Source of the DNA: Deltaproteobacteria bacterium
GTDB lineage: Bacteria; Myxococcota_A; Polyangia; JAAYKL01
Length of the DNA stretch: 64,000 nt
NCBI GenBank assembly: GCA_028713995.1
Contig: JAQTNF010000005.1
Span: 1-64,000 of the forward strand
Direction of reading: 5' to 3'
The notes under the pieces were generated by a model that had not been told where the DNA came from, did not search any database, and saw only the letters and a list, made by a program, of their open reading frames with translations. This document shows, piece by piece, positions 19,235-24,436 of this stretch; position 1 is the first letter of the stretch; every line of letters begins with the position of its first letter. Made by a program: the position numbers and the translations under genes.

Positions 19235-20491
19235 TCAGATTGCTTGGCCAACGAAACACTGGGAATTGGCCGGCGCGGGCAGCTCGATCTCGGTGATTGG
19301 GGAACGACTTGCCGTGTCGAACACCCGCAGCGTCTCCGCGTCTGCGGTCCGGTCCGCCAGGAAGACCTTGTCCCCGCCCGGGGTCGCGGCCAGGTGCCAC
19401 AGGGAGTCGGCTGCAGCCTCGTGCACCACCGTCACGGACGGCGGATCCGCAGCCAGGTCGATATCCACAAGAGCATCCGAGGCGCCGTCGCCCGTGTCCG
19501 GACGGTTCACGACCGCCCACAGCCGATCGTCCGCGACGAAGGTCCATGAGAAGATGTTCCCGCTGGCCTCGGTCTCGGTCACGAGCGGGCCGAGATCCTG
19601 TCCGCTCGCGAGGTCCACGGCGTCAATCGCGCCGTCGTCGTAGCCTCCGGCCCAGCTCGAATCCCCGCTGGCATTGAAAAGCAGACGCGCGCCGCGAACC
19701 ACGAGCGCGTTGTCGAAGATGTGCGTGCCCTCCACCTCGATGCCTTGCACGCCGTTCAAGCCGTCGTCCATATCGACGAGACTCCCGTTCACCGGATCGT
19801 AGACCGCAATCGTGGCGAACGGTGTGGCCTTGTACTCCTTCTCGTGGCCGAGACCGACGAAGAGCCGGTCCCCGGCGATTGCGACCGGCCCGGGATCCGG
19901 GTTGCCGTCGTCGTCCTTGCCCGCGGCGAAGGCGGTCAGATCGATGGTCTCGGCAAGGCCGTAGGGCTCGGTGGTGGTGTCGACCCGGTCGAGCATGCCG
20001 GAGCCGAAAGCGGTCACATAGACGTGGGTGCCGTACATGACCGCGCCGTGCAGGTTGGCGTAGAGCCCGAGCGCGAGCTCGCCTTGCACCGCGAGGTCCG
20101 GCCCGGCGAGGTGCACGAGGCGATTCTCGGTCGCGTCGGGCGGTGTCGGGAAGTAGCGGTCGAGCACGAACGCGTTCTCCCCCTGGCAGCGCACGACCGC
20201 GTCCGTGCCGGTCGCCACGCCGAGGTCTGTCACCTCGTACGTTTCCGGATCCACGGCGTAGACGCCACCGCCGGTCCCGCTCCAGTCCGCAGCGGCCACG
20301 ACCAAGGTGATCCGGTCGTCGCCCGTGTCCGTGTCCCCGCCGTCCCCGCCGCCGTCCGCGCCCACGTCTGTTTCGGTGTCCGTGCCGGCCGCGTCCGCCT
20401 CGGAGTTGGCGTCATCGCCACTTCCGCAGCCGAGCGGGCCGCCGACCGCGCATGCGGCTGCAAGCAGCGCTCCCCAGTGTCTCTGTGTCAT
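19235..20491 (-). CDS. predicted lipoprotein with Thr/Asp-rich linker and YVTN-like beta-propeller; candidate cobalamin-binding surface protein
   Basis: MTQRHWGALLAAACAVGGPLGCGSGDD leader; repeated VYAVDPETYEV, IAVYDPVNGSLV, AIDAVDLASGQDL, LRVFDTASRSPI; downstream of a cobalamin riboswitch. Confidence 0.7.
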   Translation of the reverse strand: MTQRHWGALLAAACAVGGPLGCGSGDDANSEADAAGTDTETDVGADGGGDGGDTDTGDDRITLVVAAADWSGTGGGVYAVDPETYEVTDLGVATGTDAVVRCQGENAFVLDRYFPTPPDATENRLVHLAGPDLAVQGELALGLYANLHGAVMYGTHVYVTAFGSGMLDRVDTTTEPYGLAETIDLTAFAAGKDDDGNPDPGPVAIAGDRLFVGLGHEKEYKATPFATIAVYDPVNGSLVDMDDGLNGVQGIEVEGTHIFDNALVVRGARLLFNASGDSSWAGGYDDGAIDAVDLASGQDLGPLVTETEASGNIFSWTFVADDRLWAVVNRPDTGDGASDALVDIDLAADPPSVTVVHEAAADSLWHLAATPGGDKVFLADRTADAETLRVFDTASRSPITEIELPAPANSQCFVGQAI

Positions 20492-20639
20492 GTCGTTCCT
20501 CGGTGGTTCCCTGTGGGGGTTGTCCGCCTCCCCTCCCGGGAGGGCGGGCGCCCGTTCCTCGAGACCCACGAGGCCAAGGTCCGTGCGCGCGCGCGCCAGG
20601 GAACCGTGATTCCTTGCACCCCGAAGGTCTGAGGTGCCG

Positions 20640-20857
20640 CCGAGCAGGTCTCCTGGCTTCCGGATCGACCTACTCGCAGGACCTTCCCAGGCGGCGAACC
20701 TCCTTGCAAAGGAGATCCCTCGCGCCCAGTGGGCCACCCTGCTTTCGTTCCCGGTTACAGTGGCGGGGGCCGCGCCGGTGTTGCACCGGCTTCCCTGGAC
20801 GGGCTTTTTTCGCCCATCCGTGCCACGGCGGCAAAGCACGACTTGGAAAAGATCGAC
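20640..20857 (-). promoter_or_regulatory. cobalamin riboswitch
   Basis: Minus strand GGGAAGCCGGTGCAACACCGGCGCGGCCCCCGCCACTGTAACCGG and GGAAGCCAGGAGACCTGC core/B12-box elements. Confidence 0.95.
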
Positions 20858-20863
20858 TCCGAC

Positions 20864-20892
20864 CGTCTAGCAGAGCGCATCCGCAGGGTCAA
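20864..20892 (-). promoter_or_regulatory. promoter TTGACC-N17-TAGACG for the riboswitch transcript
   Basis: -35 at 20887-20892, -10 at 20864-20869; predicted start near the riboswitch 5' end. Confidence 0.5.
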
Positions 20893-20906: not shown

Positions 20907-21626
20907 TTAGAGCGGCGGGCGAACGTCCACGATGCCGTCCTCGTCTGACTCCGAGACCAGCACGTCCGTCTGGTCCGCGAGCGCCGCCTCGAGCTCCGCG
21001 TGGATGTGATCGAAGCACACGTTGTTGCGGTACAGGTAATGGATGGCCGCGGATGTGGTGAACGCCACGCCGATGTAGTCGGTCTCGTCGGTCATGCTCA
21101 CGACCTGACCGTCGAATGTGCTCAGCATGTTGAGGATGAGGCGCGTGTCGGAATCGATGCGCAGGTACACTGGCTGGTTATAGTCGATCGAAAACTGGAG
21201 CATGTCGTGCCAGACTTGGCCGGCGGGCGTGCTCGCGTCGAAGGTCACTGGCTCCGCGCTCGCGAAGGTCACGGTCTCGATGTTCTGCACCGGCGCCGAA
21301 ATGGCTGTCACGATGTCGAGCACCATGGCGTCGGGCGCGTCGACGAGACAGTCCTCCGACCCGGTGCTCGTGTCCGTGTCCCCGTCGGAATCCGTGTCCA
21401 TGTCCGTATCAGCATCCGTGTCCGCATCAGCATCCGTGTCCGCGTCCGCGCCGCTGTCCGAGCTCGCGTCGGTACCAGTATCGGTCCCACTAGCGGTCTC
21501 GCTGTCGGTCTCCTGGTCCGTCCCTGTGCCAGTGTCGTCCTTGTTGCCTGAGCTGCTCTCGCCGCATGCCGTGAGCAGGAACCCGCACAGCAGCGCCACG
21601 CCAACTTTCGACATCGTCGTGTCCAT
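20907..21626 (-). CDS. lipoprotein with Thr/Ser/Ala-Asp repeat linker
   Basis: GFLLTAC lipobox; DTDSDGDTD... linker; globular C-terminus. Confidence 0.65.
   Translation of the reverse strand: MDTTMSKVGVALLCGFLLTACGESSSGNKDDTGTGTDQETDSETASGTDTGTDASSDSGADADTDADADTDADTDMDTDSDGDTDTSTGSEDCLVDAPDAMVLDIVTAISAPVQNIETVTFASAEPVTFDASTPAGQVWHDMLQFSIDYNQPVYLRIDSDTRLILNMLSTFDGQVVSMTDETDYIGVAFTTSAAIHYLYRNNVCFDHIHAELEAALADQTDVLVSESDEDGIVDVRPPL
21360..21460. repeat. short GTCCGNGTC-type repeats encoding an Asp-rich linker
   Basis: Iterated gtccgcatcagcatcc / gtccgtgtcc units. Confidence 0.55.
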
Positions 21627-21646
21627 GCATTCACCTCCCGTTTCTC

Positions 21647-24436
21647 TTACTTCGCAATCTTCCACTGGTGATCAAAGAACCCCGCGGCCAGTACCGGCCG
21701 CCCGTCGAGGGCGAGGCCTCCCTTTCGTCCCCACGATGACGCATCGAACACCACGTAGTCCGGCAGGAGCCCAGGTAGGTGCTCGGCGTAATACAGGGCG
21801 CGCGCGCTCGCGCCGGTGTACACGAGCACGTAGCGCGAGGGCTCGAGCGGATTCGGATGGATGAACGCGGCTGCAACGGTCTCGCCGCTGTACATCGTGT
21901 CGCCCGCGATCACGGCACCGAGCTTCGCGTGGACGGGGAGCGCATCGTTCATGGACGCGAGGAGCCGGTTGCCGCGGGGCGTGCCGATGATCACGAGCGA
22001 GCTCGCCTTCATATCCTCGGCCGTGATTTCGGTGTCGGCCTTGACGGGCCAGTGAACGAACGTCCCGTTGCCGGGGTTGGACATGGAAAGCGCGATGCGC
22101 TTCGTGATGGCGCACTCGGTCTTGTCCGCGGTGCCGTATACGAAGACGAGCGGCTCGTAGAAGGCGTCCTCGATGGGACCGGACAAGCCTGGCCGCTTGC
22201 AAGCCTGCGCGCAGGGGATTGCCGGGCCGGCCAGCCACGCCTGCTTGTCCTTGTGGAGCGCGAAAGGCCCCGGCCCGTCGAGCGCGATCGGCGCCTGCCC
22301 GTCCACGGCGATCGAGAGCGCCATCGTGCCCTTGGCGAGCGCCTCGTCCCGCGCCACGGTGAGCGCGGCCACGTTCTCGGTGGTCGCTTTCAAGGCGCCG
22401 GATCTCTCCCACACGGCGTCGATCTTGGCCCATGCGCCGTACTCGGCCACGTCGTCGATGGAGAGCCAGCGCGAAGTCCTGTAGCGCAGGTTGGCGGTCA
22501 GAAACGTCACGTGGCGCGGGTGCATGTCGCGCCGGTACTTGCGGAAATGCTCGAAGATGCGCCCTCCCTTGTAGGCCTCGTCCCACACGTTGTGGCCCAG
22601 GTCCGGCGTCTCGAAAGTCACGTCGTAGCCGAGCTGCTTGTAGCGATCGACGAGCACGCTCGACGTACGCGGCTGGTCCTTTGTCCCGTGCACGAGGTAG
22701 AGCGGCAGGTGGCGCCCGTTCTCGGCCCACGAGGTGTTGGAGCGCGCGCTGGCCATGAGCTTCTCCCACGGCAGGAGCGTGACGCCCGCGAGGGAGCTGC
22801 TCGCGAGCACGCTGTGGTACCCGCACAGGGGTACCGCCGTGGCGAACATGTCCGGGTAGTGCAGCGGGATGGAAGCCGCGCCGATGCCGCCCATGGACGC
22901 GCCTGTCATGTAAACGCGGTCGGGGTCGATGCGGTAGCGCTCCATGACGCGCGCCACGGCTTCGAGCACGTCCACCTCTCCGAACGTGCGGTACCATGAG
23001 TTGCCGAACGCCTCGGGCGCGAGCACGAAGAACGGCTGGTCGTTCATGGGCTTGGGCGCCCGCTCGCGCGAGATCTTGGTTTCGCCCGGCACGTCGGCCA
23101 CGCCGAACACGGACTGAATCATGGAGATGGGCAGCCCGTTCATACCGTGCAAGGCCACGATCAATCCGAAGCGCCGCTCCTTCTGCTCGCGCCAGGCGCG
23201 GGGCACGTAGAGCGCGTAGTAGCGGTAGGAGCCGTCGATGGCGGAGCGGTAGCCGCGGCGCTGGATCTCCCCGCGCCTTCCGGCGAATGGATCACGCCCT
23301 GCGGCGAGCTCCTTGGCCATCTTCGCTGCGAGCCCGATCTCGCTGCCGAGGTAACGGGTGTCCTCGTCTCCCGCGCGCACCAGAGAGGTGAGGGTGTCCA
23401 CGCGCGCCGCGACGCTCTCCACGCTCGTGCGCGGCACATCCGCGAGCCGCGCAGCCGAACCCATGTCCGCGCTCGCTGTGGCCAGAGCCTTCACGTCGCC
23501 CATGCGCATGGCCACACGCGCGCTCCACCTGGCGCCGCCCGCTTCGATCTCGACGACCTTGGGGATCGTCCCGTCGTTCCACCCGAGAACCGTGAGCCGC
23601 GCGGTGGCCGACCCGGCTGCGGTGAGATCGATGGTCGCGCTCCTTGTCTTGTCGGGCCCGCCGTCGGCCGAGACGGTCGCTGCGATGCTGCCCAGCACGG
23701 GCGCGCCGCCCGGGAAGTCGAGGATCACCGCCGCGGACGCCGCTGCCTTGTCGAGATCGACGCTGCGTTCGAGGCGCAAGGATCCCGTCCGTCCGACGAG
23801 CGTTGCGGGCGATTCGCCCAAGCCCGGCAGCACCACGGTCAGATCGGCCGGCCGGCCGAACGCCTCATCCATGAGGCGCAGGAAGACGCGGAAGGGTCCG
23901 GGTGACGGGTGCTTTGTGGCGATGACGAGCAGGTTGTCGCCGGCCACGAGGTCGAGCGCGAAGAGATCTGTGTCTTTGACCGCGCGCCTGTCCGTATCCG
24001 TGCGAAACGCTTCCTTTCCGGACAGCCATGCGCGCAGCGGGCCGTCGCTCCCGGTCGCGGCCCACAACCGTCTCGCGCGCGGCGTCCGCAGGAGCGCCGC
24101 CAGATAGGCCGTGCCGGTCTTCTTCCTATCGAGGCTCGCACCCTCTTCACTGGACGCGTTCCACGTCCACCGATCGCTGAGCGTCCTTGCTCCGCTTCTC
24201 GGGAGGGCCTCGGGCGCCCACAACACCGCCGGCATGGTGGCGTCGCTCGGCTCGTTTGCGAGCGGACCGAGCACGAGCCACGTCGACACGAACCCGTCGG
24301 GTCCGGGCGTGAACACTGTCTCTGTTGCAGGATTCTGCGCGCTCCCGTCATCGATCGCGGCGGCTCCGGGGCCCGCGAAGACGGCCGCGACGGCCACGGC
24401 CAGGGCTGCGGCTCGCGTCGAGCGCGGTCGGCGCAT
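21647..24436 (-). CDS. secreted PHB-depolymerase/prolyl-oligopeptidase-type alpha/beta hydrolase
   Basis: LIVALHGMNG, VYMTGASMGGIGA catalytic-Ser motif, VHGTKDQ; N-terminal signal peptide. Confidence 0.75.
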   Translation of the reverse strand: MRRPRSTRAAALAVAVAAVFAGPGAAAIDDGSAQNPATETVFTPGPDGFVSTWLVLGPLANEPSDATMPAVLWAPEALPRSGARTLSDRWTWNASSEEGASLDRKKTGTAYLAALLRTPRARRLWAATGSDGPLRAWLSGKEAFRTDTDRRAVKDTDLFALDLVAGDNLLVIATKHPSPGPFRVFLRLMDEAFGRPADLTVVLPGLGESPATLVGRTGSLRLERSVDLDKAAASAAVILDFPGGAPVLGSIAATVSADGGPDKTRSATIDLTAAGSATARLTVLGWNDGTIPKVVEIEAGGARWSARVAMRMGDVKALATASADMGSAARLADVPRTSVESVAARVDTLTSLVRAGDEDTRYLGSEIGLAAKMAKELAAGRDPFAGRRGEIQRRGYRSAIDGSYRYYALYVPRAWREQKERRFGLIVALHGMNGLPISMIQSVFGVADVPGETKISRERAPKPMNDQPFFVLAPEAFGNSWYRTFGEVDVLEAVARVMERYRIDPDRVYMTGASMGGIGAASIPLHYPDMFATAVPLCGYHSVLASSSLAGVTLLPWEKLMASARSNTSWAENGRHLPLYLVHGTKDQPRTSSVLVDRYKQLGYDVTFETPDLGHNVWDEAYKGGRIFEHFRKYRRDMHPRHVTFLTANLRYRTSRWLSIDDVAEYGAWAKIDAVWERSGALKATTENVAALTVARDEALAKGTMALSIAVDGQAPIALDGPGPFALHKDKQAWLAGPAIPCAQACKRPGLSGPIEDAFYEPLVFVYGTADKTECAITKRIALSMSNPGNGTFVHWPVKADTEITAEDMKASSLVIIGTPRGNRLLASMNDALPVHAKLGAVIAGDTMYSGETVAAAFIHPNPLEPSRYVLVYTGASARALYYAEHLPGLLPDYVVFDASSWGRKGGLALDGRPVLAAGFFDHQWKIAK

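Follow-up and report, generated by a model that had tools for sequence, protein, structure and literature searches.

Can a Myxococcota bacterium capture B12 with a lipoprotein propeller of the kind that BtuG represents in gut Bacteroides, and can it do so from a gene that stands apart from any receptor? This question is raised by a 64,000-nucleotide stretch of contig C5 (JAQTNF010000005.1) of a Deltaproteobacteria bacterium (assembly GCA_028713995.1), hereafter the window, in which a cobalamin riboswitch is followed by a single lipoprotein gene. BtuG homologs have been held to be exclusive to Bacteroidetes, a BLASTP search at 1e-10 having found no BtuG outside that phylum, and the same study asked why only Bacteroidetes supplemented BtuB with a capture lipoprotein (PMC6143338). 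DUF4465 B12 binders have been reported from Myxococcota among other clades, and propellers of the PF16819 family are reported to be encoded next to DUF4465 genes (PMC13398666). For the propeller family in Myxococcota described here, we found no report in the open-licence full-text literature. The parts of the locus are, in 5' to 3' order:

20892-20864, minus strand: promoter-like letters TTGACC-N17-TAGACG (boxes at 20887-20892 and 20864-20869), weak, 8 of 12 consensus bases
20856-20626, minus strand: cobalamin riboswitch aptamer RF00174, full length (cmscan)
20621-20626, minus strand: CTTCGG, possible anti-Shine-Dalgarno strand, predicted to pair with CCGAGG at 20498-20503
20597-20605, minus strand: GGTTCCCTG, 5' arm of a 9-bp stem, putative expression platform (RNA fold of the 165-nt 3' part)
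20505-20513, minus strand: CAGGGAACC, 3' arm of the 9-bp stem, just 5' of the ribosome-binding site (sequence and RNA fold)
20496-20501, minus strand: Shine-Dalgarno-like GAGGAA (sequence)
20491-19235, minus strand: P0001, predicted BtuG-like beta-propeller lipoprotein of 418 aa, ATG start

The minus-strand cobalamin riboswitch recognised in a preliminary description of this DNA proved to be the sole Rfam match within the window, covering positions 1-189 of the 189-position RF00174 model with a covariance-model score of 88.6 bits (E 1.6e-20), which passes the gathering cut-off of 31.5. It ends 135 nt from the lipoprotein ATG on the same strand, no other gene lies between the two, and a scan for intrinsic terminators in this interval found none. 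A 534-aa open reading frame that reads back through the riboswitch is mechanical; the gene begins at the ATG at 20491. The promoter that the preliminary description assigned to the riboswitch fared less well: its letters are present, but a consensus scan gave no support for a sigma-70 promoter there.

Cobalamin riboswitches usually switch genes off when cobalamin is abundant. At this locus, scarce cytoplasmic cobalamin would permit expression of the lipoprotein and plentiful cytoplasmic cobalamin would shut its gene off; we infer both the direction and the level of this control. The most likely mode is control at translation initiation, given that no intrinsic terminator was found and that the predicted leader pairing can cover the ribosome-binding site. 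As the predicted fold of the leader around the start codon has no energetic advantage over shuffled sequence (z -0.21), the translational mechanism is put forward as a proposal. A stretch similar to the GGTTCCCTG region also opens contig C178 of the same genome.

P0001 has the layout of a lipoprotein, with a lipobox (GPLGC, Cys22), an acidic Thr/Asp/Gly linker (residues ~23-59) and a seven-bladed propeller (~60-418), and so bears out the earlier reading of the downstream gene as lipoprotein-like with a Thr/Asp linker. A long linker of Thr/Asp repeats is also present in the lipoprotein-like product of the upstream neighbour (20907-21665, minus strand); in this genome, such linkers are therefore not confined to the propeller. 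Single-sequence searches of P0001 against Pfam, NCBIfam and PDB returned no family above cut-off and nothing firm, and relatives and profiles were required to place the protein. Its lipobox Cys, the predicted lipidation site, is invariant in all 21 of 21 family members, and the propeller domains of the family are acidic throughout (pI 4.05-5.05). The propeller domain of P0001 carries a charge of -38.6, and the whole protein -12.1 per 100 residues; generic propellers range from -2.5 to +2.7 on this scale, and the BtuF of the same genome lies at -0.3.

A family HMM built without P0001 scored it at 144 bits (E 5e-41) and the paralog on C178 at 260 bits, whereas generic YVTN propellers from Sphingomonadales, and one protein from Kapaibacterium, reached 21-38 bits. 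Judged by these profile scores, P0001 is a member of a riboswitch-linked propeller family. The three Sphingomonadales matches and the one from Kapaibacterium were not accepted as members because of their low scores and because their loci contain no riboswitch; the Candidatus Kapaibacterium protein (L046:3930-5021), a weakly family-like lipoprotein propeller at 20.8 bits, lies on an 8-kb contig where no riboswitch was found. More generally, RF00174 is absent from the vicinity of the generic propellers found, and none of these is strongly acidic.

The linkage of this family to riboswitches recurs across Myxococcota, to which the closest family members retrieved from named genomes, all metagenome-assembled, also belong; its linkage to TonB receptors recurs among the relatives. 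Searches of 59 relatives gave 21 family places. At 20 of these, a same-strand RF00174 match precedes the propeller gene by no more than 5 kb, and at five of the 20 the riboswitch is direct, at a distance of <1 kb. Each of the 16 non-direct places among these relatives includes a TonB plug, which falls between the riboswitch and the propeller except at the single place where no riboswitch was found; there it is upstream of the propeller. With the family profile, matches at E <= 0.001 came from 204 of 379 Myxococcota genomes, a count that will include other, distant propellers. In 40 further genomes, taken from the best-scoring additional ones, 36 of 47 places show the same linkage (RF00174 upstream, same strand, 5 kb at most), and 34 of the 40 genomes hold at least one riboswitch-linked copy; the chance expectation is about 0.0008 per place. 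Seen from the side of the RNA, a family member lies downstream of 55 of the 107 riboswitches listed for the surveyed genomes; some distant members have no riboswitch linkage. Individual loci vary. On G056:C305 (L081), a stand-alone propeller and a TonB receptor each have an upstream RF00174 riboswitch of their own, the two riboswitches being divergent and separated by ~0.8 kb, and at L039:316-715 two riboswitches occupy opposite strands within 400 bases of a 9.7-kb contig that also carries four Acido-Lenti-1 RNAs.

AlphaFold2 models, computed from shallow alignments of 8 sequences, were compared by Foldseek with 350,542 PDB chains. The P0001 model (pLDDT 71.6, below 50 in the signal/linker and two loops) contains 28 strands arranged as seven four-stranded blades, which places the YVTN-type blades of the preliminary description on firmer ground than the weak single-sequence match to TIGR02276 (E 0.035). 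The model of L040, a btuB-linked relative, is also a seven-bladed propeller (27 strands, pLDDT 80.0). For L040, BtuG takes rank 1 and 14 of the 15 best matches (best E 2.5e-15), with a TM of 0.78 to BtuG3 with cyanocobalamin, and outranks both YncE and XusB (rank 27, TM 0.67). For P0001, BtuG3 ranks second by E-value, behind the YVTN S-layer protein 1L0Q (TM 0.56); its TM of 0.73 is the highest target-normalised value among the 50 matches listed. Structural alignments to BtuG show 10-14% identity. The family profile likewise found BtuG chains in the PDB (1.3e-6 to 4e-4), with the repeat-rich 1L0Q best (7.6e-8) and NirF (0.07) and YncE (0.087) far weaker. The propeller is a generic fold, and 1L0Q outranks BtuG by E-value for P0001 and by profile for the family. 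PF16819 (DUF5074) had no match in P0001 or its paralogs and one sub-threshold match elsewhere (E 0.128), and was ruled out as an identifier of the family.

The genome from which the window comes (4.98 Mb in 218 contigs, 97% complete) contains three RF00174 matches and three members of the propeller family. As the preliminary description stated, the window holds no BtuB: no TonB plug domain was found on C5. This holds for the window only, and the wider search for btuB and further riboswitch loci located TonB receptors beside both paralogs, on contigs C136 and C178. The first of these belongs to a complete locus:

L004:3039-13768 (G000:C136), single strand: cobamide import and salvage operon, in the order riboswitch, TonB receptor, propeller, btuF, btuD, btuC, cbiR, cobU, cobT, cobS, cobQ

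Its products include a BtuF-like periplasmic binding protein, an ABC ATPase, a BtuC-like FecCD permease and the remodelling phosphodiesterase CbiR, which passes the cut-off of its NCBIfam equivalog at 259.8 bits. On C178, the ATG of the third propeller overlaps the end of the TonB-receptor ORF. The third riboswitch lies at the very end of C80 and is directed outward; C178 opens with bases that resemble the window leader 3' of the riboswitch (score 29; the highest of 2,979 null draws was 28.5). No exact sequence overlap joining the two contigs was found; the position of the riboswitch at the contig end and the similar leader sequence suggest that C80 and C178 are probably parts of one riboswitch-receptor-propeller locus. 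The window gene is a stand-alone riboswitch-propeller unit, and its two paralogs on other contigs are receptor-linked. CbiC, a corrin-ring biosynthesis enzyme, was not detected in this genome, yet 21 matches to B12-binding domains were, and we therefore consider that the organism is probably a scavenger that must import and salvage cobamides.

BtuG of Bacteroides (BT1954/BtuG2, BT2095/BtuG3 and BtuG1; PDB 3DSM, 8OKV, 8BMX, 8BMZ, 8BAI and 8P97) is the closest known system. Structures 8OKV, 8BMX, 8BMY, 8P97 and 8P98 represent BtuG2 or BtuG3, most of them with cyanocobalamin, and BtuG2, the lid on BtuB, has a negative face to which the positively charged cobamides bind (PMC10404256). Like BtuG, the Myxococcota proteins are lipoproteins with a predicted acidic, seven-bladed propeller, encoded in cobalamin-riboswitch loci and usually beside btuB together with btuF and btuCD; in the predicted models, BtuG is the best fold match for the btuB-linked member and among the best for P0001. 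They differ in phylum and in including stand-alone riboswitch-gene units: btuB adjacency is absent at the window gene and present for its two paralogs and at all non-direct loci of the relatives. A further difference concerns export, as the Bacteroidetes lipoprotein export signal has been described as exclusive to that phylum (PMC6143338) and would not be expected in the Myxococcota family. Because PF16819 fails to match, the window gene does not adjoin btuB, identity to BtuG is as low as given above and cobamide binding is putative, we withhold formal membership of BtuG. Generic YVTN, YncE and S-layer propellers (1L0Q, 3VGZ) share the repeat class and general fold of the family; the generic propellers found in the searches show neither its linkage to RF00174 nor its strong acidity. 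DUF4465/BtuJ and BtuH resemble it as accessory B12-binding lipoproteins of riboswitch loci but are different proteins and not propellers, BtuJ being a jelly roll. One btuB-linked propeller (L014:1057-2919, G008:C490) carries a C-terminal extension of ~220 aa that is reminiscent of the BtuG1-BtuH fusion; there is a weak match to the Leptospira lipoprotein family LIC_13355 (E 3.6e-6), and a BtuH/DUF4465 domain as in BtuG1 received no support from Pfam or PDB.

We propose, with a probability of about 0.8, that P0001 is a BtuG-like cobamide-capture lipoprotein, a divergent stand-alone copy under riboswitch control that serves a BtuB-type receptor encoded elsewhere. Three independent lines, namely the riboswitch/TonB linkage, the profile similarity to BtuG and the predicted fold, support this reading and, with it, the suggestion of the preliminary description that a BtuG-like propeller exists outside Bacteroidetes. 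In the mechanism that we envisage, (i) the lipid-anchored acidic propeller would capture cobamides (B12 and its relatives) at the outer membrane; (ii) it would hand them to the BtuB-type TonB receptor from C136 or C178; (iii) BtuF and BtuCD would carry them inward; and (iv) CbiR, CobU, CobT, CobS and CobQ would remodel and salvage the imported cobamides. We infer ligand binding, surface exposure and the partner receptor of P0001, and hence capture and hand-over, from the analogy with the BtuG2 lid on BtuB (PMC10404256), and the strong negative charge of P0001 would fit binding of positively charged cobamides as on the negative face of BtuG2.

The divergence of P0001 leaves some room for a different role. 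It is the most divergent member of the family, with the longest end branch in the tree (1.97), no firmly placed sister and no adjoining receptor gene, and the RLGAD and GLPP motifs present in most members are missing from it; a single weakly supported group unites nine of the ten stand-alone copies placed in the tree, among them P0001. Its function could have drifted, and while the btuB-linked members would capture cobamides, P0001 may have taken over another task in the B12 regulon, such as handling a different corrinoid or precursor, storage or sequestration, or stripping of carriers. We regard this as unlikely, since riboswitch class, lipobox, fold, acidity and family are all the same, and since the uptake loci of B. 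theta also encode several lipoproteins that bind B12 (PMC12751083).

About equally doubtful is that the propeller faces the periplasm and acts as a lipoprotein chaperone that passes cobamides from BtuB to BtuF. The residues after the lipobox Cys differ among members (GSGDD, DDGST and others), several having Asp directly after the Cys, and the C136 gene lies between btuB and btuF, both of which would suit such a chaperone. We are aware of no accepted rule by which Myxococcota sort lipoproteins to the surface, which also counts in its favour. Against it, the periplasm is already served by BtuF, and fold and locus parallel those of BtuG, which is surface-located (PMC6143338).

A B12-controlled propeller with another ligand, for example a siderophore or another metal complex, or with the role of a scaffold, appears improbable. 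MxcH is a siderophore receptor, and both TonB receptors (C136 and C178) obtain their best NCBIfam scores from MxcH, ahead of TonB-B12, all of them below the curated cut-offs. XusB of Bacteroides fragilis (PDB 9HQK, 9HQE), a propeller lipoprotein of similar structure and the partner of a TonB receptor, has ferric siderophores (xenosiderophores) as its ligands. However, the Myxococcota family is under RF00174 control across the phylum, a full btu/cob operon surrounds the C136 paralog, BtuG structures outrank XusB, and TonB-B12 profiles also match both receptors. A bystander riboswitch in front of an unrelated generic YVTN propeller, as the empty single-sequence searches might suggest, is highly implausible in view of the linkage in tens of genomes as against the chance rate given above, the uninterrupted leader and the family HMM score of P0001.

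In summary, sequence comparison reveals a widespread, unnamed family of riboswitch-linked propeller lipoproteins in Myxococcota, usually encoded beside a TonB-type importer, which by analogy very probably captures B12 as BtuG does in gut Bacteroides. We lean towards the view that this is a phylum-wide capture system, formed by an undescribed family that is either convergent with BtuG or anciently diverged from it, too remote for ordinary sequence search and inclusive of a stand-alone copy serving BtuB in trans. If this is true, propeller-based B12 capture would be a wider strategy of cobamide-scavenging Gram-negatives and not a peculiarity of Bacteroidetes. The family offers a metagenome marker for cobamide scavenging as well as new candidate corrinoid binders, and through it the origin of BtuG, by common descent or by convergence, would become testable.
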